DNA from: an uncultured Gammaproteobacteria bacterium
GTDB taxonomy: Bacteria > Pseudomonadota > Gammaproteobacteria > Eutrophobiales > Eutrophobiaceae
Assembly: GCA_943788815.1 (NCBI GenBank)
Contig: CALSRS010000001.1
Span: forward strand, 682,001-746,000
Length of the DNA stretch: 64,000 nucleotides
Direction: 5' to 3'
Each line of letters opens with the position of its first letter. Position 1 is the first letter of the stretch. Under the pieces are notes generated by a model, which was not told the origin of the DNA, searched no databases, and saw nothing but the letters and a program-made list of their open reading frames with translations. The position numbers and the translations under genes are program-made. Positions 29,457 through 47,065 of the stretch are shown piece after piece.

Positions 29457-32132
29457 TTAGAAAAAGTTAAACTTCACCCTTGCACCGTAGGAAGCAAAGT
29501 TAGACAGGCTTGTCTGGACTTCTGAGTCCAGTATACCTTCACCCCGAATGTCAAATTCCGGATTGTACCGCTGAGTGTTACCTATCAGGTTGCGTCCATA
29601 GAACAGGATGCTCCAGCGACCTTCCATATCTCCCACCTCATAGGACATGCTGACGTCCCAGGAACTGGGGTAGTTAACAACATTTGTAAAAGAACGGTCA
29701 GTTTTATATTCAGCTGTACCTGTCACTGTGGCATCGAAGGTCGATGTGTAATCATCAAATATCGTCGGTAACTCATAGTTGGTGTTAAAGGTCATCTGCC
29801 AGTCCGGTGCGTTCCTCGCATCAGTACCGGAACGGTCTGCCACACCATCAACACACAGCCCTGCCACGACTTCGTCTTCGATACAGGAGGCATTGGTATA
29901 TTCCACCACCTCGGCATCCAGCATGGAGAGGTAACCACTCAGGGTCAGGCGGTCCGTGGCGGCAAACTGCGCACTCAGCTCTATGCCCTTGGATTCCTGC
30001 TTGGCGATATTACGGGTAATATTTCGTTCCAGGATGGGATCGATATAAGACACCTGTACACCTTTAATATCCGTAAAAAAACCGGTGATCTCAGCAGCCA
30101 GACGACCATCGAAGTAGGAACCCCTGGCACCCAGTTCATAGGTCTCATACTCTTCGGGACCGAAGGCAAAGTCTTCCTCGAATTGGGTAACCGTGGAGAC
30201 CCCCATGTCAAAGGCACCAGACTTAAAGGAGGTGGCATACTTGGCATAGAGAGACACATCATCATTAGGACGGTATCGCAACACCACCTGCGGGTCAAAA
30301 GAACTGTCATCAATGCTACTCGCGATGTCTACACAACGGCTGGAGGTGATGCGGCCTGCAGGATGGGTTGCCCCCAGCAGTGCATCACAGTTCAGGGTAA
30401 TCTGGGAACGGCCAATGACCTCGGCGGTGGGCAGCCAGGGATTGGCATCAACCAATGCCTGTCCCGCCGCGGCCCGTGCTGCACCGGCAGCACCACCTTG
30501 TGTCAAATCCATACCAAACGGCAGGCGAAACGGCACTTCGTTTACAGGGTCCCAGACATACCATTCACCGATACGGTTCTTACCGATGGCGTCTTTTTGA
30601 ATATCGGTATAACGGGCACCTACATCCAGAGAAAACTGTTCCATGAAATTAAACGTCAGCGTGGCAAAGCCACTCATCCATCGGGAATCTTCCTCGGTGC
30701 GGGTTGAACGGATCGGTAGACGCCAGCTGGCTACAAAGGCATCAGACCAGGCTTCCAGGTCGTAGGACTGCCAGTACACGCCACCCATCCATTCGATGGC
30801 ACCACCCACAGGTGAAGTCACCCGGAACTCCTGGCTCCACTGGCTGAAATACTCACCACGGGAACGGGCATTGGAGGCAAAGGCACCGCCGCCGGAGTTA
30901 TAGGGGGTATTATTGAACCGGGTATAGCTGTAGCCGGTCTTGGCATTGACCTCGATACCGTTGTCAAGCATGTAGTTAAGATCCATGTTGGCATGCCAGG
31001 GACTGGAGCTGGATATATCGCTACGATCACAGGCCTCAAAGTGGTCAGGCCGCTCTGGCTGGATACCACCGGCATCATACTGGATTAATCCACCGGCCTT
31101 CTGACAGTCAGCAAAGCTTAGGAGCATACCGGCATTACTGCTTGAGGCCTCGGTCAATAAAGGTACTCCAGCTGCCAGCCTCGCCTCGTTTTCCACACGG
31201 GGATTGATGAAGGTCGGTCCATACTTAAACCCCGTTCGGGTAATTTCGCCAATCTTCTGATCCACCGGAGGTGTATTGGTAGAAAAGATACCCAGTATCG
31301 GGGCACTATGGCCATGATAGTCTTTTCTTTCATCCGGATCGAAAGCGAATTTATCAAACACCACAGGCTGTACCCGGGGACCGAGGTCATTATGGGCCAC
31401 CTCTACCTTCCAGGAGGCAGAGAAATTCTCCGTCGGTTTCCATTCGGTGGTAATACGCCCGGTCATGTATTCACGCTGGGGAAATTTTTCACCGGTCCAA
31501 TAGTCACGCATGAAGCCTTCCAGGCGGTAGTACTTGGCGGCCACCCGCACACCGAAGGTATCGGTGATGGGACCACCCACGGCGCCCTCGACAACGGCCT
31601 TGCCAAACCGGCCATAATCACCGCTCAAATAACCTTCCCAGGCATCACCCGGTTTGCGCGTGGTGATGTTAAGCGCACCGGCGGCGGCATTCTGTCCGAA
31701 GAATACCGGTTGGGGACCTTTGAGGACCTCAAGGCGCTCGATGTCCATGTAGGAATTCAAGACCTGTGAACCACGGCCAAAATGGATACCATCAATAAAG
31801 GTAGGTACCCCTTGTTCAATACCGAGGTTCTTGCTCTGGGTGCCGGAACCACGCAGGACCAGACCCTGTTCCTCTGAAGTACTCTTAACGACTAATCCGG
31901 GGGCATACATGGTCAACTCATTTAGGGTATCAAACCCTTTGTCAGACATGGCATCACCGGAAAATGTCTGCAGAGATACAGGAACATCCTGCAGGTTCTG
32001 CTCACGACGCTGGGCCGTCACCACGATCTCTTCGAGTTGCTGGGCCTGCAAGTTTGGTATCAACCCAAAGACCATGGATGCAATAACGCTAGAAAGTATG
32101 GAAATTTTGTTTATCGAATATGAACTAGTCAT
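29457..32132 (-). CDS. TonB-dependent outer-membrane receptor, paralogue 3
   Basis: 891 residues. The signal peptide ends NLQA before QQLEEIVVTAQRRE; GGGGGA lies 4 bases before the ATG. The plug contains IDGIHFGRGSQVLNSY, where the other three have HMGRGSQV. The barrel ends ARVKFNFF. It retains the paired loop cysteines (FADCQKAGG...FEACD, NCDALLG...SSRC, SCIEDE...GLC). It is nearest to paralogue 2, with differences concentrated in predicted outer loops, as expected if the copies now bind different ligands. Base use is slightly more GC-rich than its neighbours, mostly at third positions. Confidence 0.95.
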   Translation of the reverse strand: MTSSYSINKISILSSVIASMVFGLIPNLQAQQLEEIVVTAQRREQNLQDVPVSLQTFSGDAMSDKGFDTLNELTMYAPGLVVKSTSEEQGLVLRGSGTQSKNLGIEQGVPTFIDGIHFGRGSQVLNSYMDIERLEVLKGPQPVFFGQNAAAGALNITTRKPGDAWEGYLSGDYGRFGKAVVEGAVGGPITDTFGVRVAAKYYRLEGFMRDYWTGEKFPQREYMTGRITTEWKPTENFSASWKVEVAHNDLGPRVQPVVFDKFAFDPDERKDYHGHSAPILGIFSTNTPPVDQKIGEITRTGFKYGPTFINPRVENEARLAAGVPLLTEASSSNAGMLLSFADCQKAGGLIQYDAGGIQPERPDHFEACDRSDISSSSPWHANMDLNYMLDNGIEVNAKTGYSYTRFNNTPYNSGGGAFASNARSRGEYFSQWSQEFRVTSPVGGAIEWMGGVYWQSYDLEAWSDAFVASWRLPIRSTRTEEDSRWMSGFATLTFNFMEQFSLDVGARYTDIQKDAIGKNRIGEWYVWDPVNEVPFRLPFGMDLTQGGAAGAARAAAGQALVDANPWLPTAEVIGRSQITLNCDALLGATHPAGRITSSRCVDIASSIDDSSFDPQVVLRYRPNDDVSLYAKYATSFKSGAFDMGVSTVTQFEEDFAFGPEEYETYELGARGSYFDGRLAAEITGFFTDIKGVQVSYIDPILERNITRNIAKQESKGIELSAQFAATDRLTLSGYLSMLDAEVVEYTNASCIEDEVVAGLCVDGVADRSGTDARNAPDWQMTFNTNYELPTIFDDYTSTFDATVTGTAEYKTDRSFTNVVNYPSSWDVSMSYEVGDMEGRWSILFYGRNLIGNTQRYNPEFDIRGEGILDSEVQTSLSNFASYGARVKFNFF

Positions 32133-32438: not shown

Positions 32439-35141
32439 TTAGAAGAAGTTAAACTTCACCCTGGCACCGTATGATGCGAAGTTAGACAGGGAGGTCTGGG
32501 CACTGGATTCCAGTAAGCCGTCACCACGAAGATCCAGTTCTGGGTTGTATACCTGGGTGTTACCAATCAGGTTACGACCATAGAACAGAATGCTCCAACG
32601 ATTGTCTGACGGTCCAACTTCATACGAGAGATTCACGTCCCAGGCCTTGGGATAATTCACAATGTCAGTGAATGTACGATCTGTGGTGTAATCATCCGTA
32701 CCAGTCAGTGTCGCATCAAAGGTAGAGACATAACCATCAAATATGGTAGGCAACTCATAATTCAAGTTATAGGTCATCTGCCAGTCCGGTGCATTTCTTG
32801 CCCGTGAATTATTACGGTCAATGGTGCCTTCCAGTGAGTCGTCGCCTACAAGCGCAATAGACTCTGCTTCATCACGGCATGAACCCAGTAAGATCTCATC
32901 TTCAGTGCAGACGGCATCGTTAAATTCCACCACGGTGGCATCTAGCAATGAAAGGTATGCACTCAAGGTCAGTCGGTCAGAGGCGGCAAATTGAGCACTC
33001 AACTCAACGCCCTTGTGTTCCTGCTTGGCGACGTTCTGGGTAATATTTCTATCCAGCACACGACTGACAAAAGATACCTGTACACCTGTGATATCGGTCA
33101 TGAACCCGGTTGCTTCCAGGGCCAGTCGGCCATCCATAAAGCTACCGCGTGCACCGATCTCCCAGGTCTCGTATTCTTCTGGACCAAAAACAAAATCCTC
33201 ATCATTTTCCGGGACGTTGGATACTGCCATGTCAAAGGCACCGGACTTGAAGGACGTCGCGTACTTGGCATACAAGGAGACGTCATCATTGGGGCGATAA
33301 CGCAACACGACCTGTGGGTCGAAGGAGCTATCATCGATAACACCGGACACATCGGCGCAGTTTTGGCCAACGATTCTTCCCTCAGGGGCAGTAGCACCTT
33401 GCAGGACATCACAGTTATTTGTTACTTGTGAACGGCCTATGACTTGCGCATTGAGCAACCACGGATTGGCGGCCAGTAAGGCCTCGGCGGCACCACGTCG
33501 ACCGGCGTTACCCTGAGTAACATCTGTTCCATAGGAGAGTCGGAAGGGGTCACCTGTGGTGGGGTCTTCTACATACCACTCACCGATACGGTTGACGCCC
33601 TGACCTTCCTTATGAATATCAGTGTAGCGTGCACCTACGTCCAGTGAAAACTGCTCATAGAAGTTAAAGGTCACTGTGGCAAACGCACTCATCCAACGCG
33701 AATCGTCTTCAGTACGGGTCATGCGGATCTGGTTACGCCAGTTGGCACGGTAGGCATCGGACCACGCAGCCAGGTCATTATCCTGCCAGTAGGCACCAGC
33801 CATCCATTCGATGGTCTCGCCAACGGGTGATGACACACGGAACTCTGTACTCCACTGGCTAAAGAATTCACCGCGGGCACGGTTATTCGTAGGGAATGGG
33901 CCACCACCTGAGTTGTATGGTGAATTATAGAATTTCTGGTAGCTGTAACCGGTCTTGGACGCCAGCTCTATGCCGTTATCCAGAGTATAGGTCAGATCCA
34001 TAACAGCATGCCAGGGACGGGATCCGGACTCATCCGTAAAGTTACAGCTCTCAAACTGAGAAGGCCGAACAGGCTGAATACCACCAGCACCAAATACCTG
34101 TAACCCACCAGCTTTCTGACACTGGGTAAAATCCAGGACCACGCCAGATTCACTGGCAGATGCTTCGATGATGGGGTCTATTCCAGCAGCAATACGTGCC
34201 TGATTCTCTGCCGCAATACTAAGAAAGGTCGGACCGTATTTTCTGCCGGTACGGGTGAACTCACCCACCTTCTGATCAACGGGTCCTACATTTGCCGTAT
34301 ATAGACCGGTGATCGCCGTACTGAGTCCATCTCCCAGGAACGGGTCATCAAATGCAAATTTATCAAATACCACAGGCTCAACACGAGGTCCGAGGTCATT
34401 GTGTGATACTTCCACTTTCCAGGAGGCCTCAAAGTTTTCTGTAGGACGCCAAACGGAGGTGATTCGTCCAGTCAGGTATTCACGCTGGGGATATTTGTCT
34501 CCAGTCCACCAGTCACGCATGAAGCCTTCCAGACGGTAATACTTGGCTGCCACCCGAATACCAAAGGTATCGGTAATAGGACCACCTACTGCACCATCTA
34601 AAATGAATTTGCCAAAGCGACCATAATCGGCACTGAGATTACCTTCCCATTCATCGCCAGGCTTGCGGGATGTAATGTTCAATGCACCTGCAGCGGCATT
34701 CTGACCAAAGAATACAGGCTGGGGACCTTTAAGTACCTCAAGGCGTTCAATATCCATGTAGGAATTTAAGACCTGTGAACCACGACCCATGTGAATACCG
34801 TCGATGAATGTAGGCACCCCTTGCTCGATACCGAGGTTCTTACTCTGGGTACCGGCACCACGGAGGATTAGACCCTGCTCTTCGGAGGTACTCTTGACCA
34901 CGAGGCCAGGGGCGTAGTAGGTCAGCTCATTAAGGGTGTCAAAGCCCTTATCATTCATGGATTCACCAGAAAAGGTCTGCAAAGAAACCGGGACGTCCTG
35001 GAGGTTCTGCTCACGACGCTGGGCCGTAACCACGATCTCTTCCAGTTGCTGCGCCTGGGCGACTAATACCGGCCCAATACCCATAACAATGGAGAGTCCT
35101 CCGAGGATAAGATATTTAATTGATTTGAAGTTTGATGACAT
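32439..35141 (-). CDS. TonB-dependent outer-membrane receptor, paralogue 4
   Basis: 900 residues from ATG 35141. The frame is open 57 codons further upstream, but that part overlaps the promoter and does not look like coding sequence, whereas AGGA lies before ATG 35141 and the peptide then starts with a normal signal (SIKYLILGGL to AQA, before QQLEEIVVTAQRRE). Plug and barrel match paralogues 2 and 3, ending ARVKFNFF. An insertion of about 20 residues (DEAESIALVGDDSLEGTIDR) follows the third cysteine pair in a predicted outer loop and is unique to this copy. Its promoter is the best of the four. Confidence 0.95.
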   Translation of the reverse strand: MSSNFKSIKYLILGGLSIVMGIGPVLVAQAQQLEEIVVTAQRREQNLQDVPVSLQTFSGESMNDKGFDTLNELTYYAPGLVVKSTSEEQGLILRGAGTQSKNLGIEQGVPTFIDGIHMGRGSQVLNSYMDIERLEVLKGPQPVFFGQNAAAGALNITSRKPGDEWEGNLSADYGRFGKFILDGAVGGPITDTFGIRVAAKYYRLEGFMRDWWTGDKYPQREYLTGRITSVWRPTENFEASWKVEVSHNDLGPRVEPVVFDKFAFDDPFLGDGLSTAITGLYTANVGPVDQKVGEFTRTGRKYGPTFLSIAAENQARIAAGIDPIIEASASESGVVLDFTQCQKAGGLQVFGAGGIQPVRPSQFESCNFTDESGSRPWHAVMDLTYTLDNGIELASKTGYSYQKFYNSPYNSGGGPFPTNNRARGEFFSQWSTEFRVSSPVGETIEWMAGAYWQDNDLAAWSDAYRANWRNQIRMTRTEDDSRWMSAFATVTFNFYEQFSLDVGARYTDIHKEGQGVNRIGEWYVEDPTTGDPFRLSYGTDVTQGNAGRRGAAEALLAANPWLLNAQVIGRSQVTNNCDVLQGATAPEGRIVGQNCADVSGVIDDSSFDPQVVLRYRPNDDVSLYAKYATSFKSGAFDMAVSNVPENDEDFVFGPEEYETWEIGARGSFMDGRLALEATGFMTDITGVQVSFVSRVLDRNITQNVAKQEHKGVELSAQFAASDRLTLSAYLSLLDATVVEFNDAVCTEDEILLGSCRDEAESIALVGDDSLEGTIDRNNSRARNAPDWQMTYNLNYELPTIFDGYVSTFDATLTGTDDYTTDRTFTDIVNYPKAWDVNLSYEVGPSDNRWSILFYGRNLIGNTQVYNPELDLRGDGLLESSAQTSLSNFASYGARVKFNFF

Positions 35142-35237
35142 TATTAATTTCCTATCTTGTTGATTTATAGAATATTTCCGAAGAATTAGTGGCATATGCG
35201 CAACACCAACCATCCAACCCCTTGGATACAATAGCGC

Positions 35238-35266
35238 ATTACAAAGAGTTAAAGGTAAGATGTCAA
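35238..35266 (-). promoter_or_regulatory. promoter of TonB receptor 4
   Basis: On the minus strand a consensus -35 TTGACA (35261-35266), a 17-base spacer and TGTAAT (35238-35243), one base off the consensus -10, about 95 bases before the start codon. This long leader is also why the upstream in-frame start codon is rejected. Confidence 0.65.
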
Positions 35267-35388
35267 GCAATATGAATAGTAGTGTAAATAATTTTGGCGT
35301 CAAAATTATCAATATATGCGTTGTTTTATAACAACAAGCAGATATTTCAATTGCTTTTACAATTGAGTGCTAAATTTTATTGATGTAA

Positions 35389-37619: not shown

Positions 37620-38918
37620 TTATTGAGACAATGCCATTTTATAAACGGCAAGCGCCCGTTGTCTGGCATCACGATAGTCGATCATGGGCGGTGGATAATC
37701 AGCTGTATCAAATTCCGGCACCCATTTCTTAATATATTTATGTTCAGGGTCAAACTTCTTAATCTGGGTATCGGGATTGAAGATGCGAAAATACGGCGCG
37801 GCATCACACCCTGAACCGGCACTCCACTGCCAGCCTCCTATATTATTTGCCATCTCATAATCCAGTAGTTTCTCAGCAAACCATTTCTCACCCCATCGCC
37901 AGTCGACAAGTAACAGCTTGCTCAAAAAGTTGGCAGTAATCATTCTGACCCGGTTATGCATATAACCAGTCTCCTTTAACTGGCGCATTCCCGCATCCAC
38001 TATAGGAAAACCGGTTTTACCATTGCACCATTTGTTAAATTCCTTTTTATTATTTCGCCAGGGAATGGCATCGTACTTCTCACGAAATGATTTTGAGGCC
38101 GTACGGGGAAAGTGAGAAAGTATCTGAATAAAAAACTCCCGCCAGATAAGCTGGTTGAGCCAGGTCTCATTCATATCCAATGCGATACTTACGACTGTCC
38201 TGATACTGATTGTTCCAAATCGCAGGTGCGGTCCGATATAGCTGCTAGCATCTTCATGAGGATAGTCACGGGTCCTGTGATAGCGTTGTAATATGTCAGG
38301 CTCAAGACAGGGTTCTTCTACACCATGTTCTACCTGCACAAACCCGATATCATCAAGATTCAGTAAGGCTGCCGGTTTTTGTTTTTTAAACTGGTGACTT
38401 AAATCCTCGCTTGCATAATGTTCATACTGTACCTCAGCTAATCTCTTTTTCCAGGCACGCATATAAGGGGTATATATAATGTATGGGGTATCGTCTTTTT
38501 TCAGAACCTCATTCGACTCAAAGATCACATGGTCCTTGATGAGTTCAAGCCTGACGTTATTTTTTCTCAACAGGGTCTGAACCTGGGCGTCGCGTTTTAC
38601 GGCATAAGGTTCGTAATCCTTACATGCATAGACACAATCAATCTGAAAGTCCTTAAGCAGCTGCCTAAAGATGTCTACCGGTTTACCATGAAACACAAGT
38701 AGCGTCCCGCCTGTACTGTCTATCTCGTTTTTTAAGTACTGGATTTTTTCATAGATAAAACTCACACGACGGTCATTTGTGTCACTGAGTTTATCCAGGA
38801 TATTGGCGTCAAAAATAAAGATGGGGAGCGTTTCGCCTGATTGCAGCGCGGAGAATAACCCCGCATTGTCTTCAAGCCTCAAGTCTCGTCTGAACCAGAA
38901 TATATTCATATTCAACAT
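37620..38918 (-). CDS. phr: deoxyribodipyrimidine photolyase (cryptochrome/photolyase family)
   Basis: 432 residues: N-terminal antenna-binding domain starting NIFWFRRDLRLEDNAGL, and C-terminal FAD-binding domain with LIWREFFIQIL, GKTGFPIVDAGMRQL, MHNRVRMITANFL, DWRWGEKWFA and NNIGGWQWSAGSGCDAAPYFR, all typical of class I cyclobutane pyrimidine dimer photolyases. It uses blue light to split UV-induced dimers. Two starts (38918 and 38909) are possible; neither has a good ribosome site. It is divergent from the two-component system genes, and the TTCAC repeats in the shared region could serve both. Photolyase beside lipid-modifying genes fits a light-stress module. Confidence 0.93.
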   Translation of the reverse strand: MLNMNIFWFRRDLRLEDNAGLFSALQSGETLPIFIFDANILDKLSDTNDRRVSFIYEKIQYLKNEIDSTGGTLLVFHGKPVDIFRQLLKDFQIDCVYACKDYEPYAVKRDAQVQTLLRKNNVRLELIKDHVIFESNEVLKKDDTPYIIYTPYMRAWKKRLAEVQYEHYASEDLSHQFKKQKPAALLNLDDIGFVQVEHGVEEPCLEPDILQRYHRTRDYPHEDASSYIGPHLRFGTISIRTVVSIALDMNETWLNQLIWREFFIQILSHFPRTASKSFREKYDAIPWRNNKKEFNKWCNGKTGFPIVDAGMRQLKETGYMHNRVRMITANFLSKLLLVDWRWGEKWFAEKLLDYEMANNIGGWQWSAGSGCDAAPYFRIFNPDTQIKKFDPEHKYIKKWVPEFDTADYPPPMIDYRDARQRALAVYKMALSQ

Positions 38919-38983: not shown

Positions 38984-39005
38984 TTCACATCAATTTCACG
39001 TAAAC
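38984..39005 (+). promoter_or_regulatory. two 11-bp direct repeats upstream of the response regulator
   Basis: TTCACATCAAT (38984-38994) is followed immediately by TTCACGTAAAC (38995-39005): tandem 11-bp units sharing TTCAC, 41 bases before the regulator start and in the region shared with the photolyase. OmpR/PhoB-type regulators bind such 11-bp direct repeats. The same motif recurs in an array before the desaturase gene. Self-regulation is inferred. Confidence 0.55.
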
Positions 39006-39046
39006 TGTTAAAAAATAAACTTGATATTTTTCTAAGCTTAAAAAAA

Positions 39047-39763
39047 ATGGAATCCGAATTACAACATAACTCATTGCTTCTAATAGAAGATCATCATGAC
39101 ATTGCGGACATGGTATGCGAATACCTGGAAGCTGAAGGCTATGTCATGGATTATGCGGCAGATGGTATTACAGGTTTGCACCTGGCAGTGAGTAATCAAT
39201 ATGACGCCATCATCCTGGATCTTAACCTGCCGGGCATGGATGGTATCAGTCTATTGGAAAATGTCAGGACCCAGGCAAGATCGGATGTCCCGGTATTAAT
39301 CCTGACTGCCCAGGACACATTACAAAACAAAATTGCCGGACTTGATACCGGTGCCGATGATTATCTGGTGAAACCATTTGAGATACGAGAATTATCCGCC
39401 AGAATTCGATCCCTCATCAGGCGTAAAAAGGGGCTCGTGAGTTCCGAGATACTGAAAGTTGGCGACCTTATATTTGATACGGCAACAATGAACGTCACTC
39501 GCAACAGACAAAACCTGAAACTGACGCCGATAGGCATGCAAATATTGAAAATATTAATGAAGGCATCACCCAAGGTAGTTAGTCGACGTTCAATTGAGCG
39601 TGAGATATGGGGTGATATTCTGCCGGACAGTGATACCTTACGTAGTCATATGTATACCTTAAGGAAAGCCATTGATAAGCCATTTGATGTTTCCTTATTA
39701 AACACTGTTCAAAATGCCGGATATAAACTCGTAAAACCAGACGATGAAACGACACGGGATTAA
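39047..39763 (+). CDS. OmpR/PhoB family response regulator
   Basis: 238 residues. The receiver domain has the acidic pair in IEDHHD, phospho-acceptor D58 (ILDLNLPGMDG), the conserved Thr in LTAQD and Lys in DDYLVKPFE. The C-terminal winged helix (about 140-235) contains LTPIGMQILKILMKASPKVVSRRSIEREIWGD and the recognition helix region LRSHMYTLRKAID. It should bind tandem direct repeats as a dimer when phosphorylated. Its end overlaps the histidine kinase start by 20 bases. The TTCAC repeats at its own promoter and before the downstream lipid operon are the likely targets. Confidence 0.95.
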   Translation: MESELQHNSLLLIEDHHDIADMVCEYLEAEGYVMDYAADGITGLHLAVSNQYDAIILDLNLPGMDGISLLENVRTQARSDVPVLILTAQDTLQNKIAGLDTGADDYLVKPFEIRELSARIRSLIRRKKGLVSSEILKVGDLIFDTATMNVTRNRQNLKLTPIGMQILKILMKASPKVVSRRSIEREIWGDILPDSDTLRSHMYTLRKAIDKPFDVSLLNTVQNAGYKLVKPDDETTRD

Positions 39764-41015
39764 CCAACAACTCTGGCAGGCATTTCTTATCCAGGCCGGA
39801 CTTATCAGTTTAGTCGCTATTCTGAGTATATATGCAGCAAGGTATGTACTCAGTGATGTGCTTATAGAACGTGCCCTTACAGAAGAGGCAGATCATTTTT
39901 GGTCATTATTCGAAAGTGACCCATCCATCAGTAGACCCAATACCTATAACCTGACTGGATTTCTATATCCGATAGATGAGATACCAGCGTATATGCGGCC
40001 GTTGAATAACGGTTTTCACCAGATTGAAGTTGATAATGGTGTGCTAACTATGGTGCAAGTCAGCAATCTTGAAGATAAAAAACTGTATCTCGAGTTTGAT
40101 AATGAACAGGTTGGGAATCTTGTACTATTATTTGGGATGTTACCCTTGTCAGTCATACTATTAATCATTTACCTGTCTAGCTGGATTGCCTACCGGTTTT
40201 CATCCCAGGCGGTATCTCCAATCATTCAGCTTGCCAAAGACGTCGAACAACTCGACCCGTCAAGTGAAGAATTCTCAAAAACCATTAAACAAAACCTTAA
40301 TTACAGCCAAAACCGAGAAGTAAGGAGCCTGGCAGATGCGCTGTTTGGGCTAACGGAAAGAATTGCCCAGTTTTTAGAGCGCGAACGAAATTTTACCCGC
40401 GACGCTTCTCATGAACTGCGTAGTCCGATAACAGTGATCAAAATGGCGTCCGAACTATTACTTAATGAGGACGGACTCAATGAAAAATCACGAAAACAGG
40501 TAGAACGTATCCAGAGAAATGCGAATGATATGGAGGAACTAATTGAAACCCTGTTAGTGCTTGCCAGAGAATCAGACCATCTCCTGTCATCTGAGAATAT
40601 TTCTGTAAACGATATTGTTCGAGAAGAAATTGAAAGAGCTGAGAGTCTGCTGAACGATAAAAATATAAATATCACAATAAATGAAAATCAAAAATTGATC
40701 GTTAAAGCCCCGGACAAGGTACTCTCGGTCATGATAGGCAATATCATACGTAATGCTTTTTCCTATACCGATGAAGGTCAAATAGTCATTACTGTCACTA
40801 ATTCCAGCTTGATAGTAGAAGATAGTGGGATAGGAATTCCAGATAATCAAATCGATCGCATATTTACTGCATTTGAAAGAGGAAAACAACGTGGTGGATA
40901 TGGTGTTGGACTCACAATTGTAAAAATGATTTCTGACAGATTTAACTGGCCAATTGATATAGACAGCAAATTAAACAAAGGTACAAAGGTTGAAATTCAA
41001 TTCCAGGATATCTGA
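39744..41015 (+). CDS. membrane sensor histidine kinase
   Basis: 423 residues: TM1 about 12-36, a periplasmic sensor region of about 85 residues (SDVLIERALTEE to EFDNEQVGN), TM2 about 125-150, a HAMP-like linker, then the phospho-acceptor His223 in ASHELRSPI, an N-box (NIIRNAFSYTDEG), G1 (DSGIGIP) and G2 (RGGYGVGLTIVK). It pairs with the response regulator, which it overlaps by 20 bases. The signal is unknown: the short sensor region has no named domain that I recognise. Since it controls lipid and probably photolyase genes, membrane damage, light or reactive oxygen are reasonable guesses. Confidence 0.93.
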   Translation: MKRHGINQQLWQAFLIQAGLISLVAILSIYAARYVLSDVLIERALTEEADHFWSLFESDPSISRPNTYNLTGFLYPIDEIPAYMRPLNNGFHQIEVDNGVLTMVQVSNLEDKKLYLEFDNEQVGNLVLLFGMLPLSVILLIIYLSSWIAYRFSSQAVSPIIQLAKDVEQLDPSSEEFSKTIKQNLNYSQNREVRSLADALFGLTERIAQFLERERNFTRDASHELRSPITVIKMASELLLNEDGLNEKSRKQVERIQRNANDMEELIETLLVLARESDHLLSSENISVNDIVREEIERAESLLNDKNINITINENQKLIVKAPDKVLSVMIGNIIRNAFSYTDEGQIVITVTNSSLIVEDSGIGIPDNQIDRIFTAFERGKQRGGYGVGLTIVKMISDRFNWPIDIDSKLNKGTKVEIQFQDI

Positions 41016-41090
41016 TTCACTATAGATCATAATATTCTTCACATAGTTTTCACATCGACTGCACACATCATTCACCTGACTTTGTATAAG
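41016..41090 (+). promoter_or_regulatory. phased array of 11-bp direct repeats with -10 box before the desaturase operon
   Basis: Units start at 41016 (TTCACTATAGA), 41038 (TTCACATAGTT), 41049 (TTCACATCGAC), 41060 (TGCACACATCA) and 41071 (TTCACCTGACT), all on one 11-bp register (the unit at 41027 does not match). They run up to TATAAG (41085-41090), a -10 box with no -35 consensus; the array covers the -35 position. This is the layout of a PhoB-type activated promoter. The operon start ATG follows at 41125, and the array starts right after the histidine kinase stop codon. Confidence 0.65.
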
Positions 41091-41124
41091 CTGTCGGAAT
41101 GAAAGTACTAACGAGCCAGATTTA

Positions 41125-42075
41125 ATGCAGTCAATTTCAAATAAGAATTCTTTTGCCAGGAAACTTTGGATGTGGGTGAGTAATCATGATGCGACCTACT
41201 CTCATCTACAAACATCTGATCTGGAAGAGATCGATTATATCAGATTGAGTCTGTATATATTGTTCCATGCAAGCATACTGGGAGTTATATATACCGGGCT
41301 TAGTGCTGCTGCAGTTTTGTTTGCACTAACGATGTATGTAATACGTATGTTCTTCATTACCGGCTTTTACCATAGATATTTTTCACACAAGAGTTTTTCC
41401 ACAGGGAGGATATTTCAATTCATTATGGCAGCAGCAGGATGCACAGCCGGGCAACGCGGGCCTCTATGGTGGGCCAGCCATCACCGTCAACATCACATAA
41501 ATTCTGACACGCCAAAAGACCCTCATACTCCTTCAAAAGGATTTATGGAAAGTCACATACTATGGATATTTAAAAAGGAGAACTTCAAGGTTAAGCATGA
41601 AAAAATACGGGACTTAAGCAAGTATCCCGAACTGCTTGTATTGGAAAGGTTACACTGGGTACCATTTTTATTATATGGATATTTCTGTTTTCTAACTGGC
41701 GAATTTCTTAATCGCCACTACCCCCTGTTAGGAACAAATGGTACCCAGTTACTTATTTGGGGATTTTTTATATCTACTACCGTTCTTTATCATGCTACGT
41801 TTACTATCAATTCTCTTGCGCACAGATTTGGTAATAAGCGATTCGCTACTAATGATGACAGTAAAAATAATTTTTTTCTGGCGTTACTGACATTAGGTGA
41901 AGGTTGGCATAACAATCATCACCGATATCCTGTCTCCACTCGCCAGGGCTTTTACTGGTGGGAAATTGATATCAGCTATTTGTTGCTAAAGTTTCTTTCC
42001 TATTTTGGTCTGGTCTCCAGGCTTAGATCAGTCCCTGCCAGCATACTTGCAGAAGGAAAAGGCAAGACGGCATGA
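41125..42075 (+). CDS. acyl-CoA/acyl-lipid desaturase (delta-9 type)
   Basis: 316 residues with four membrane spans. The three histidine boxes of membrane di-iron desaturases are intact: HRYFSH near residue 90, HHRQHH near 118 and HNNHH near 273. Such enzymes insert a cis double bond into acyl chains using oxygen and electrons from a reductase. It is the first gene of a seven-gene operon and overlaps the next gene by 4 bases. It would supply unsaturated chains as substrate for the downstream methyltransferase and redox enzymes. Transcription probably depends on the TTCAC repeats just upstream. Confidence 0.93.
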   Translation: MQSISNKNSFARKLWMWVSNHDATYSHLQTSDLEEIDYIRLSLYILFHASILGVIYTGLSAAAVLFALTMYVIRMFFITGFYHRYFSHKSFSTGRIFQFIMAAAGCTAGQRGPLWWASHHRQHHINSDTPKDPHTPSKGFMESHILWIFKKENFKVKHEKIRDLSKYPELLVLERLHWVPFLLYGYFCFLTGEFLNRHYPLLGTNGTQLLIWGFFISTTVLYHATFTINSLAHRFGNKRFATNDDSKNNFFLALLTLGEGWHNNHHRYPVSTRQGFYWWEIDISYLLLKFLSYFGLVSRLRSVPASILAEGKGKTA

Positions 42076-43322
42076 AGATCGGAATAGTCGGTACAGGTAT
42101 TTCAGGGCTAAGCTGTGCCCATCTGCTACAACATGATCACGATATTACTTTGTTTGAATCTAATAATTACGCAGGAGGTCATACCAATACGATTCAAGTG
42201 AATGACAATGGTAAAAATATAAACGTGGATACTGGATTTATTGTTTATAACAATGAAAATTATCCAAACCTATGCAAGCTGTTTGATTTACTTGATGTGC
42301 AGGGAAGAAATTCTGATATGAGTTTCAGTGTGGTCAATGAAAAAACAGGTCTTGAATATAATGGTTCGGGGTTTAACAAGCTTTTTTGTCAACGACAGAA
42401 CCTGCTCAATCCAGGTTTCTGGAAGATGCTAAGAGATATCTTCAAATTTAATGATAAGGCTCCGGGATTGCTGCTTAATGGTCTGGATGACAAAATGACT
42501 GTTAATGATTTCGTAAAAAAAAATGCTTACAGCAATCAATTTATAAATGAATATCTGATCCCCCTGGGCGCCTCTTTGTGGTCTGCTCCAGCTGGTGAAT
42601 TCCTGCAATATCCAATCCGTTTTGTCATTGAGTTTCTGAATAACCACCGCATGTTGCAAGTAGCTAACAGACCAGCCTGGAAAACTGTTAAAGGCGGATC
42701 AAATACCTATGTAAAGAAAATACTCGATAGTTTCCATGGACAACTGAGACTTAACACTCCCGTTAAGCATGTAACACGGTCTAAGAACAAAATTGACATA
42801 ACACTGGCCAGTGGACAATCAGAAACATTTGACGAAGTCATTCTTGCATCGCATGCAGATCAATGTTTGCAGATGGTACAAAATCCCGGCGGTATAGAAC
42901 GAGGCTTACTTGGTATGTTTCCCTACCAGTACAATGAAGCCATACTTCATTATGATACGGAGATATTACCGTCAAATAATAATGCATGGGCAAGCTGGAA
43001 TTACAGGATCCCATCACAAGAAGCTGACCACGTGACTGTGACTTACAATATGAATATGCTTCAGGGTTTAGATGCCTCCAGGACTTATTGCGTTTCACTT
43101 AACCAGTCATCTGGAATTGCAAATTCTAAAATCATTAAACGAATTCAATATCATCACCCTGTATTTCAACCTGGTCGTGCCGATGCCCAGGCCAGCCATC
43201 ATAGACTCATCAGACATCAACGCATTTCCTATTGTGGAGCGTACTGGGGTTATGGTTTCCATGAAGATGGGATTAAAAGCGCATTGGCAGTTTGTTCTGC
43301 TTATGGCAAGGAGTTAAATTAA
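42072..43322 (+). CDS. FAD-dependent amine-oxidase-like oxidoreductase (lipid cluster)
   Basis: 416 residues with an N-terminal dinucleotide-binding motif (IVGTGISGLSCAHLL, then FESNNYAGGHTNT). It belongs to the flavin amine-oxidase/desaturase-like family typically found next to DUF1365 and CFA-synthase-like genes. In Rhodobacter sphaeroides, genes of this kind are, as I recall, assigned to methylated furan fatty acid synthesis (UfaD-like desaturation). Here it could oxidise or desaturate a methylated acyl chain. Its start overlaps the desaturase stop, and the next gene begins directly after its stop codon, so coupling is tight. Confidence 0.88.
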   Translation: MKIGIVGTGISGLSCAHLLQHDHDITLFESNNYAGGHTNTIQVNDNGKNINVDTGFIVYNNENYPNLCKLFDLLDVQGRNSDMSFSVVNEKTGLEYNGSGFNKLFCQRQNLLNPGFWKMLRDIFKFNDKAPGLLLNGLDDKMTVNDFVKKNAYSNQFINEYLIPLGASLWSAPAGEFLQYPIRFVIEFLNNHRMLQVANRPAWKTVKGGSNTYVKKILDSFHGQLRLNTPVKHVTRSKNKIDITLASGQSETFDEVILASHADQCLQMVQNPGGIERGLLGMFPYQYNEAILHYDTEILPSNNNAWASWNYRIPSQEADHVTVTYNMNMLQGLDASRTYCVSLNQSSGIANSKIIKRIQYHHPVFQPGRADAQASHHRLIRHQRISYCGAYWGYGFHEDGIKSALAVCSAYGKELN

Positions 43323-44093
43323 ATGAATAGCTGTATTTATCACGGCAAGGTTATTCATAGCCGATTCATTCCGCATATCCATATCTTTAATTACAAGCTC
43401 TACATGATGTGCCTGGATTTAAGTGAACTTCCAGATCTATTCAACAAGTTCTCATTATGGTCAGCAGGGAAACCTTCCATCGCCTGGTTCAGACGAAAGG
43501 ATCATTACGGTGATCCGTCCCAGACACTCGATCAGTCGATTAGAGAACTCGTACTTGAATCTACCGGAAAAAACCATACCGGTCCTATCCATCTCATGAC
43601 CCATCTACGATATTTCGGTATCTGTATGAACCCGGTCAGTTTCTATTACTGCTGGGACAAGGACATGCAGGATTTGGAATTTATTGTCGCCGAGGTCCAC
43701 AACACGCCCTGGAATGAAATTCATTGCTACGTCCTCGATTGTGATACAGCAAAAAAATTTAAAATTGGCTACAGCTTCGATTTCCCAAAACGTTTTCACG
43801 TGTCCCCGTTTATGTCTATGCAGCAAGACTACGAATGGTACCTTTCAATTCCTGGCGACAGGCTACATGTCAGCATGGATACTATTGAGCAGGACAAAAA
43901 AATGTTCAAGGCACAAATGCAGCTTGAACGCCTCCCTATAAATTCGAAAAATCTTTCAAAAGTTCTGCTTTCTTATCCACTCATGACCATCAAAGTCATG
44001 ACGGCAATCTATTGGCAGGCACTGAAACTCTGGATTAAAAAAACTCCATTTTTTCCCCATCCAAAATATATGAGCAATGAGATAAAACAATGA
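43323..44093 (+). CDS. DUF1365 family protein (lipid cluster)
   Basis: 256 residues. It begins [20 protein letters not shown] and has [21 protein letters not shown] near residue 100, [17 protein letters not shown] near 120 and [15 protein letters not shown] near 160, all typical of DUF1365. Members almost always stand between the FAD protein and the CFA-like methyltransferase. From memory, a family member (UfaO) is thought to add oxygen in furan fatty acid synthesis, but this should be checked. It overlaps the methyltransferase gene by 4 bases. Confidence 0.9.
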
Positions 44094-45349
44094 AAATAAG
44101 CACAACAACTTACCCAGCAGAAACACTCAAACCTGGATTCATAAACAAGATTGCCAGAAAGTTGGTCCAGCAAAGACTGGTGGATATTCAAGGCGCTATG
44201 ATCGAAATCCAGGATCCCATAGAAACATGGTATGCAGGACACGGTGACAAAGCAGATATCATCATCTCTGTGAAAAACCTGGATTTCTACAGTGAAGTCA
44301 TGTTTTCCGGGAGTAAAGGTGCCGCTGCCGCATATAGAGACGGGATGTGGACCTCGTCCGACCTGGTTAAGTTACTTCGAATCATGACCAGAAATATTGA
44401 CCTGCTAGACGGCTTTGAATCAGGTTCAGCTAAAATTATGAATCTGATTAATTCACTTACTCATAGAGCCAGAAGTAATACCCGCAGTGGGAGCAAAAAA
44501 AATATTCATGCCCACTATGATCTTGGAAATGACATGTTCAAAGTATTCCTGGATCCCACCATGACCTACTCCTGTGGAATTTTCCCTGATAAGAAAGCAA
44601 GCCTGGAGCAAGCCTCTATAGAAAAACTGGATACAATATGTAGAAAATTAAATATAGGTCCTGAAGATCATGTTGTGGAGATTGGTACTGGCTGGGGAAG
44701 TTTTGCCATACATGCCGCCAGCAGATATGGATGCAATGTTACGACAACGACAATTTCACAAGATCAACATGAGCTTGCACAAAGTAGAATTAAAGAGGCC
44801 GGCCTGGAAGATAAAATAACCTTGCTGTTGAGTGATTATCGTGACCTCAATGGTAAATTTGACAAGCTGGTCTCAATAGAAATGATCGAAGCTGTGGGTG
44901 ATGACCATCTCGGTGAATATTTTTCCAAATGCGCATCACTGGTAAAACAGGATGGTCAACTCCTGATACAGGCAATCACTATGCCAGACCGACGTTATGC
45001 TCAATACCTGAAGCGTTCAGACTTTATCCAGCAATTTATATTCCCGGGCAGTTGTGTCCCCTCCCTTACCGCAATGATGAACTATATCAGTGGTCACACA
45101 GACCTGAGAGTTGAAAATATTGAGAACATAGGACCACACTATGCAGATACACTAAATCAGTGGCATGAAAATTTCATGGGCAATACTGATAAAATTCGTT
45201 CCCTGGGTTACAGCAACGAATTTATAAAACTATGGCAGTACTACCTTTGTTACTGCGAAGCAGGTTTCCGAGAAAAATACCTTGGGACATTGCATTTACA
45301 TTTAAGCCGACCTGGATACGACGTCCCCGACATTAAGGACAGTAAATGA
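44090..45349 (+). CDS. cyclopropane-fatty-acid-synthase-like SAM methyltransferase
   Basis: 419 residues. The N-terminal ~130 residues form a lipid-binding domain. Then comes the family motif [22 protein letters not shown] (142-163, with the active-site Cys162) and the SAM site [10 protein letters not shown] (197-206). It has SIEMIEAVG where E. coli Cfa has a VGMFEHVG-like stretch, which places it with the subgroup found in FAD/DUF1365 clusters rather than with standard Cfa. It transfers a methyl or methylene group to the double bond of a phospholipid acyl chain. The product could be a cyclopropane, methyl-branched or furan-precursor chain. Confidence 0.9.
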
Positions 45350-45885
45350 AATTAATTCTACTAAATTTTATTCTGTTCCAAATTGCCTGGTTTATCACAG
45401 TCTATTCGGCATCCCTGGGTCTGGTGTGGTTTGGCCCCGTTTTTAGCATGTGCTGGCTGTACACTCATTTAGTTCTCCATAAAAACAACTGGAAAGTTGA
45501 TCTTCAAATCGTTGTTATCTCAGCCATCATCGGTTTTATACTGGATTCAATGATGGTGTTATCCGGCATATTCAGTTTTTCAGAAAATGCTAGCTTCGGA
45601 TACCCCTCGTCAATATGGATGGTTGCACTATGGGTTAATCTCGCCCTTACACTGAATTATTCCCTCGGGTGGCTTAAACAGAAACTGGGATTAAGTTCAC
45701 TTTTTGCAGCAGTGGGTGGTCCTCTGGCCTACTACGCCGGGAGCAAAATCGGCGCAATTAATTTCGAAAACGATACCCACTCAATTATTGCCTTGTCTGT
45801 CATGTGGGCAATTGCTATGCCATTACTAATTTACATTCTTGAATTATTAACCCTAAGAACCCGTACCGAGGTAATCCCAACATGA
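45346..45885 (+). CDS. DUF2878 family membrane protein (lipid cluster)
   Basis: 179 residues with five or six hydrophobic spans and characteristic stretches FQIAWFITVYSAS, GFILDSMMVLSGIF, WMVALWVNLALTLNYSLGWL and AVGGPLAYYAGSKIGA. The family is regularly found in operons with DUF1365 and CFA-like genes; its biochemical role is unknown. Start and stop overlap both neighbours by 4 bases (ATGA), so it is translated as part of the chain. It might handle lipid transfer or hold the complex in the membrane. Confidence 0.85.
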   Translation: MKLILLNFILFQIAWFITVYSASLGLVWFGPVFSMCWLYTHLVLHKNNWKVDLQIVVISAIIGFILDSMMVLSGIFSFSENASFGYPSSIWMVALWVNLALTLNYSLGWLKQKLGLSSLFAAVGGPLAYYAGSKIGAINFENDTHSIIALSVMWAIAMPLLIYILELLTLRTRTEVIPT

Positions 45886-46676
45886 GTAATTTCGAACTTA
45901 TTCTCTATGCCTTCCTCATGTCTTCACTGGTGATGACGGTGCTATGGTATATACAACTAAAAACCCATAATGCCGGTACAGTCGATGTCGCCTGGTCTTT
46001 TTTAACTCCACTGGTGGGTAGCTGGTTAATCTTGTTTGACACAACAATAGATAATATTCGCCAATATTTAATTATCTTACTAGCAATAATATGGGGCTTC
46101 AGATTAGGGATATATCTATATAACCGGGTCATGAACGAAACCGAAGATGGTCGTTACCGCTACTTCCGTGAATATGCCGGAAACAATGCGCCCTTAGTCA
46201 TGTTTCTTTTTTTCCAGGTGCAGGCAAGCTGGACAGTTTTATTCGCATTACCTTTCTGGGCAGCATCAAAAAACACATCTGCCGACATTGGGATTCTGGA
46301 TATGCTAGGTATTGCTATATGGATAATTGCAATAGGCGGTGAAATATTAAGTGATAAACAACTGAAAAAATTCAAGCAGGATGCATCTAATAAAGGTCAA
46401 GTATGCCAGTCAGGTCTTTGGAAATACAGCCGACACCCGAACTACTTTTTTGAATGGTTACACTGGCTGGCCTATGTATTGATTGGCTTTTACTCATCTT
46501 ACTGGTGGCTGACAGTAACTGGAGTACTGGTAATGTATGTTTTTATCACCCAGATTACCGGAATACCATTTACTGAAAAGCAGTCTGTCCGTAGTAAAGG
46601 AGCGCTCTACAAAGAGTATCAGAAGACTACGAGTAAATTTTTCCCCCTTCCCAGATCAAACCCGGAAAAATCCTGA
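45882..46676 (+). CDS. DUF1295 family (steroid-5-alpha-reductase-like) membrane protein
   Basis: 264 residues with about six to seven membrane spans. The C-terminal part carries the family motif SRHPNYFFEWLHWLAYVLIG near residue 185, shared with 5-alpha-reductases and isoprenylcysteine methyltransferase-like proteins, which suggests an enzyme acting on a lipid with NAD(P)H or SAM. In this operon it may reduce a double bond of the modified acyl chain. It overlaps DUF2878 by 4 bases, and its stop overlaps the next start by one base. Confidence 0.88.
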   Translation: MSNFELILYAFLMSSLVMTVLWYIQLKTHNAGTVDVAWSFLTPLVGSWLILFDTTIDNIRQYLIILLAIIWGFRLGIYLYNRVMNETEDGRYRYFREYAGNNAPLVMFLFFQVQASWTVLFALPFWAASKNTSADIGILDMLGIAIWIIAIGGEILSDKQLKKFKQDASNKGQVCQSGLWKYSRHPNYFFEWLHWLAYVLIGFYSSYWWLTVTGVLVMYVFITQITGIPFTEKQSVRSKGALYKEYQKTTSKFFPLPRSNPEKS

Positions 46677-47065
46677 TGCAGATCAGTCAACCTACTCATA
46701 ATGTTATGGACTCACAAAGAAAGTCGTTCCTGAGTTTCCGTTTACTCGTCGCCCTGGTCTTATCAGGTGTCCTGGTAATGGGCTATTTCCTGCTGCTCGC
46801 GATTGAACATGGAAACCTCGCGGTGGAAGGTCCATTATTACTTGAAATGCCATGGGGTTTTCTATCACTGGTTGATATTTATACCGGCTTAGGCCTTGTT
46901 TCCTGCTGGATAATCTGGCGTGAAAATAACCTGTTTATATCTCTATCCTGGGTAGCATTAATACTGGTACTGGGTAACATGGGCACCTGCATCTATGTAC
47001 TAAAATGCCTGCGTGAATCAAAAGGAAATTCATCTATGTTCTTCATGGGGGAAAAAGTAACATAG
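46676..47065 (+). CDS. small three-span membrane protein, last gene of the lipid operon
   Basis: 129 residues with three hydrophobic spans: about 25-45, 60-82 and 90-110. The stretch PWGFLSLVDIYTGLGLVSCWIIWRE resembles DUF1475/DUF2834-type small membrane proteins, but I am not certain of the family. The start codon overlaps the DUF1295 stop (TGATG), so it belongs to the operon. No function can be given; it is followed by 63 bases before the GFA gene. Confidence 0.7.
   Translation: MQISQPTHNVMDSQRKSFLSFRLLVALVLSGVLVMGYFLLLAIEHGNLAVEGPLLLEMPWGFLSLVDIYTGLGLVSCWIIWRENNLFISLSWVALILVLGNMGTCIYVLKCLRESKGNSSMFFMGEKVT

Follow-up and report, generated by a model that had tools for sequence, protein, structure and literature searches.

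Which of two divergent genes does a repeat in their shared gap serve, and what would bind it there? In the window (the whole 64-kb stretch of DNA analyzed here), a 128-bp gap with a repeat pair lies between a photolyase open reading frame (ORF) on the minus strand (37620..38918), a possible target identified by family search and the sole photolyase homologue found in the window's genome, and a divergent response-regulator ORF on the plus strand (39047..39763). The original prediction had placed two abutting 11-bp units here, and re-reading of positions 38984-39005, TTCACATCAATTTCACGTAAAC, confirmed them. Unit 1, TTCACATCAAT (38984..38994), and unit 2, TTCACGTAAAC (38995..39005), abut directly on the plus strand, as supported by the sequence, a gap alignment and a locus survey, and the regulator gene starts 47 bp downstream of the pair. 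TTCAC-N6-TTCAC occurs twice in the window (at 38984 and 41038) versus 0.16 occurrences expected, and 1 of 100 shuffles of the window reached at least two pairs. The earlier observation of the repeat pair is correct but understated. We propose, with a probability of roughly 0.8, that the pair is a binding site of the adjacent regulator, which would activate its own operon and further targets in a PhoB-like manner upon a photo-oxidative stress signal. The repeats, their period, orientation and conservation, and the -10 offset are read from the sequence, while binding by the regulator, activation and the signal are what we infer.

Conservation of the pair was scored in loci collected by a kinase-alignment scan of named genome contigs and supplemented with earlier loci. 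This set comprises 88 loci, 80 of which have a readable regulator upstream region (the exceptions are L143, L146, L151, L159, L160, L174, L206, and L212); L044, L045, and L047, from the same genomes as L139, L142, and L140, and the copies L135 (of L040) and L189 (of L043) are not among the 80. For each locus, the best match to the ten TTCAC-TTCAC positions was taken on the sense strand of the stretch before the regulator. In the regulator's orientation, 57 of the 80 loci have a pair with no more than one mismatch and 23 do not, counts that do not represent independent events because many of these loci are closely related. The best match has no mismatch in 13 loci, 1 in 44, 2 in 6, 3 in 7, and 4 in 10. 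On the antisense strand, a pair is found in 3 of 80 loci (L046, L157, and L214), all exact, with none at one mismatch. When the upstream stretches were shuffled (200 rounds), pairs with at most one mismatch appeared in a mean of 0.47 and a maximum of 2 loci, and a scan of periods from 7 to 18 bp gave 57 loci at 11 bp versus 0 to 5 at each of 7 to 10 and 12 to 18 bp. Among five genomes of the window's genus, the two units form the main invariant block of the gap, and the remainder has diverged, the photolyase side included. Judged from sequence comparison, the repeat is a real and widely conserved control site.

The presumed binder of the repeats is a 238-residue regulator of the OmpR/PhoB class, with receiver (Response_reg) and winged-helix (Trans_reg_C) domains in Pfam. 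Its nearest NCBIfam model is CztR/SilR/CopR, with a score below the cut-off, and related regulators of solved structure include BasR, KdpE, and PhoB. The partner sensor histidine kinase (423 residues; 39744..41015, plus strand) shows HisKA and HATPase_c only, and no light-sensing domain was found in it by Pfam scan; its predicted structure, with a mean pLDDT of 64, is too weak to indicate its signal. Activator promoters of the PhoB/PmrA type carry head-to-tail half-sites with an 11-bp period that replace the -35 element. The promoters described here are alike in all three respects and differ in the half-site itself, TTCAC, and in the four units, the third weak, of most listed targets. Upstream of the regulator, a putative -10 hexamer, AAAAAT (39011..39016, plus strand), is a weak match at the offset preferred in relatives, +27 from unit 1: in the 57 regulator promoters with a pair, the most frequent position of a -10-like hexamer is +27 (12 promoters; the next offset has 4). 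The original prediction that the regulator controls itself is well supported by a sense-oriented box at the -35 position, conserved in 57 of 80 loci, and by a preferred distance between the box and a -10-like hexamer.

The second pair in the window belongs to a longer box. Four units at an 11-bp period (41038..41075, plus strand), TTCAC at 41038, TTCAC at 41049, TGCAC at 41060, and TTCAC at 41071, precede a lipid operon on the same strand, with a weakly matching putative -10 hexamer, TAAGCT (41087..41092), at +49. The operon begins with a fatty acid desaturase (41125..42075), followed by an FAD-dependent amine-oxidase-like protein (42072..43322), a DUF1365 protein (43323..44093), a CMAS-family lipid methyltransferase (44090..45349), and DUF2878, DUF1295, and DUF1475 proteins (45346..47065); all were assigned by family search. 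The furan fatty acid oxygenase UfaO also carries DUF1365, according to the available part of one report (PMC7380195), and the DUF1365 protein is therefore a candidate UfaO. UfaD has been described with an NAD-FAD-binding domain, which makes the amine-oxidase-like protein its candidate counterpart, and the methyltransferase may be UfaM or a cyclopropane synthase. DUF1365 is present in all 10 genomes that have the regulator and in none of the 10 without it.

Does the four-unit layout recur? In a list of 38 target promoters compiled by hand, the -10-like hexamer most often lies at +49 (22 promoters; the next offset has 6). This is no census, because the list was hand-picked from exact intergenic pairs, blind to the -10, and other such pairs were left off it (e.g., L070, L071, L083, L090, L095, L116, L118, L145, L147, L156, L169, and L183). 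Of the 38, 26 have a unit with no more than one mismatch at offset 33, and 13 have one at offset 22; most listed promoters have four units, and the third is usually weak. Two three-unit target promoters have the hexamer at +38. In the +27, +38, and +49 cases alike, the -10-like hexamer begins 16 bp past the start of the last unit. A box at the -35 position with a fixed step to the putative -10 is the layout of an activator that replaces the -35 element.

A genome-wide scan for the pair, the check proposed with the original prediction, yielded 13 exact pairs in the window's genome (3.23 Mb) versus 4 in a reversed control, a result that speaks against matches at a random rate. Seven of the 13 are intergenic, and the 6 inside ORFs are probably due to chance. 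The nine genomes in which the regulator has a close orthologue (65 to 86% identity) contain 69 exact pairs versus 22 in controls, and ten genomes of the family without one (best match 45% identity among the matches listed, with none listed for G018) contain 29 versus 24. The enrichment of pairs therefore follows the regulator.

In the window's genome, intergenic pairs precede the regulator gene, the lipid operon, and folB-folE-folM, as well as genes for a SOUL heme-binding protein, a DUF6134 protein, a protein resembling TonB-dependent receptors, and a MipA/DUF2141 protein, the last with TspO divergent from it. This supports the earlier suggestion of a regulon reaching past the lipid genes. 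Units 1, 2, and 4, taken together as a pattern, have exact matches at three sites only (lipid operon, folB, and DUF6134), and with at most two mismatches this pattern has 14 matches in this genome versus 6 in reversed controls. Several boxed genes recur in other genomes: folB in G002, G010, and G025; DUF6134 in G001 and G004, and also in G002, where it is part of a boxed operon; and the TonB-type receptor in G002. Boxes also precede folE2 in G001 and G004 and a lipocalin in G010, G017, and G028, where the G004 folE2 and the G017 lipocalin are named from matching place and size. The lipocalin is a recurrent boxed target outside the window's genus (L113:2654, L093:1501, and L119:2495). Separately, the minus strand of the window itself carries a tandem of two similar TonB-dependent-receptor-like ORFs, so named by eye (29457-32132 and 32439-35312).

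Whether photolyase belongs to this regulon, as originally predicted, is the point on which the evidence divides. One regulator dimer on the shared-gap box might activate both divergent promoters, that of photolyase included, a possibility that we rate at somewhat below even odds. In 5 of 5 genus genomes, photolyase and the regulator are divergent, with the box in between. A photolyase lies inside the fetched kinase flanks in 10 of 88 loci, other lineages included; beyond the genus genomes, it is near the kinase, in other arrangements, in five loci (L050, L142, L143, L146, and L204). The proposed regulon includes the pterin genes folB-E-M, and phrB is listed among LitR regulons with similar genes in the available part of PMC9758184. 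However, the shared-gap box faces away from photolyase. A photolyase-oriented box was found in 0 of 5 genus genomes (best matches with 3, 3, 4, 4, and 4 mismatches), and the photolyase side of the gap lacks conservation among them, whereas in G025 (L046) a divergent folB has an exact, folB-oriented repeat of its own. At the loci with other arrangements, a search upstream of the L204 and L050 photolyases yielded no pair at two or fewer mismatches; the L143 photolyase has only a 2-mismatch candidate, and that of L146 has a 1-mismatch candidate. For the distant photolyases in G010, G013, G017, G025, and G028 (six loci, L125-L129 and L131), no upstream box was found in five of the loci, and L131 has a single 1-mismatch match at position 944, about 310 bp ahead of the distant photolyase ORF. 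Since no photolyase-oriented box exists in the genus genomes and folB has its own oriented repeat, the gap box favors self-control of the regulator, not control of photolyase. What stands of the claim is the recurrence of photolyase beside the two-component system: control of photolyase by the regulator is suggested, and co-regulation would require activation from an opposite-facing box, which is possible.

The sign of regulation is not given by sequence alone, and the repeats could in principle bind a repressor, or the regulator could repress its own gene. We consider this improbable, since boxes at -35 with a fixed 16-bp step, and a -10 that shifts as units are added (+27, +38, and +49), are the layout of an activator. 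In the activation mechanism that we prefer, the partner kinase would phosphorylate the regulator, and the phosphorylated form would bind head-to-tail TTCAC-N6 half-sites in lieu of a -35 element and recruit sigma70 RNA polymerase to a -10 starting 16 bp past the start of the last half-site. Two half-sites would drive the regulator-kinase operon, amounting to autoregulation, and mostly four would drive the targets, including the desaturase/FAD-oxidase/DUF1365/CMAS operon, folB-folE-folM, DUF6134, the TonB-type receptor, and others. The SOUL gene would also be under the regulator's control.

Another question is whether the sites belong to this regulator at all, since TTCAC-N6-TTCAC is identical to the cre/blr tag of CreB and BlrA, as given in the available parts of PMC4689548 and PMC3660660, and this tag is also seen before E. 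coli creD. CreBC and BlrAB of E. coli and Aeromonas resemble the present system in having this direct repeat before their targets and, in the same partial sources, an OmpR-type regulator that binds it. The boxes described here could thus be occupied by a CreB/BlrA-type regulator encoded elsewhere in the genome, which we regard as very improbable. Every protein of the window's genome scores below the 273-bit cut-off of the CreB model, and the best scorer on that model (227 bits) fits BaeR better (318.9) and adjoins a BaeS-like kinase. The boxes, moreover, track the window's regulator across genomes and precede its own gene. This regulator is itself distinct from CreB: it is 33% identical to the E. 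coli protein over 229 positions, reaches 133.6 bits with the CreB model versus 406.5 for E. coli CreB, and reads RSHMYTLRKAI where CreB has DTHIKTLRAKL. Unlike in CreBC/BlrAB, the targets here are lipid, pterin, and related genes. A scan of ten neighboring proteins gave no match to a CreD model. On model scores and genome distribution, we reject CreB ownership of the sites. A chance origin of the repeat pair is ruled out by the shuffles, the conservation in 57 of 80 loci, and the restriction to an 11-bp period.

To what signal would the regulator respond? Of the genes known from photo-oxidative regulons, lipid and pterin genes are boxed here, and photolyase is adjacent to the regulator. LitR is a MerR-type regulator, and the LitR system pairs it with a LOV photoreceptor; the present system is of the two-component type and goes with TTCAC repeats. 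The gene set of the LitR/LOV light regulons of Pseudomonas overlaps the proposed regulon: the LitR regulon includes phrB, ufaM, an FAD-dependent oxidoreductase, folE, folM, and folX in the available part of PMC9758184. Furan fatty acid genes, for which the proposed regulon has candidates, are in the core sigmaE-ChrR (ECF11) singlet-oxygen regulon of Rhodobacter, according to the available parts of PMC6852236 and PMC7380195. Control in that system is by an ECF sigma factor and here by a response regulator; ChrR was above its cut-off in 0 of 20 genomes of the window's family, with sub-threshold matches in 5 of 20. Because the regulon matches light and singlet-oxygen gene sets, the signal is, from gene content alone, most likely photo-oxidative membrane stress. 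Our literature search, among sources available in part, found no two-component system reported as controlling the lipid/pterin/photolyase set. The new element is a two-component system that apparently governs a gene set described under LitR or sigmaE-ChrR; the motif itself is already known. A broader reading, to which we give a little less than half of our confidence, is that a widespread and apparently undescribed gammaproteobacterial two-component system took over the photo-oxidative regulon (photolyase, furan fatty acids, and pterins, elsewhere under LitR or sigmaE-ChrR), with a kinase that senses membrane damage, not light. This comparison suggests one defense gene set against light and singlet oxygen under three unrelated kinds of regulator.

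The promoter code obtained here is precise, with n TTCAC units of 11 bp and a -10 starting 16 bp past the start of the last unit, and predicts the regulon of an apparently uncharacterized two-component system in many gammaproteobacteria. TTCAC-N6-TTCAC is also found directly upstream of paralogous response regulators that share about 45% identity with that of the window (L051:7496 and L053:747); therefore, the motif may predate the subfamily of the window's regulator. Two further one-mismatch four-unit boxes were seen in the window's genome. One (L245:1501-1538; C1:875443-875480) has CATAGT at +49 and is a second box some 430 bp upstream of that of folB, past the end of an FAD-oxidoreductase gene and with no clear gene of its own before a 58-residue ORF and folB. 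The other (L248:1501-1538; C1:2014131-2014168) precedes a 160-residue fasciclin-like ORF, with a Dps-like ORF farther downstream, both named by eye, and the boxed gene is possibly an oxidative-stress target.
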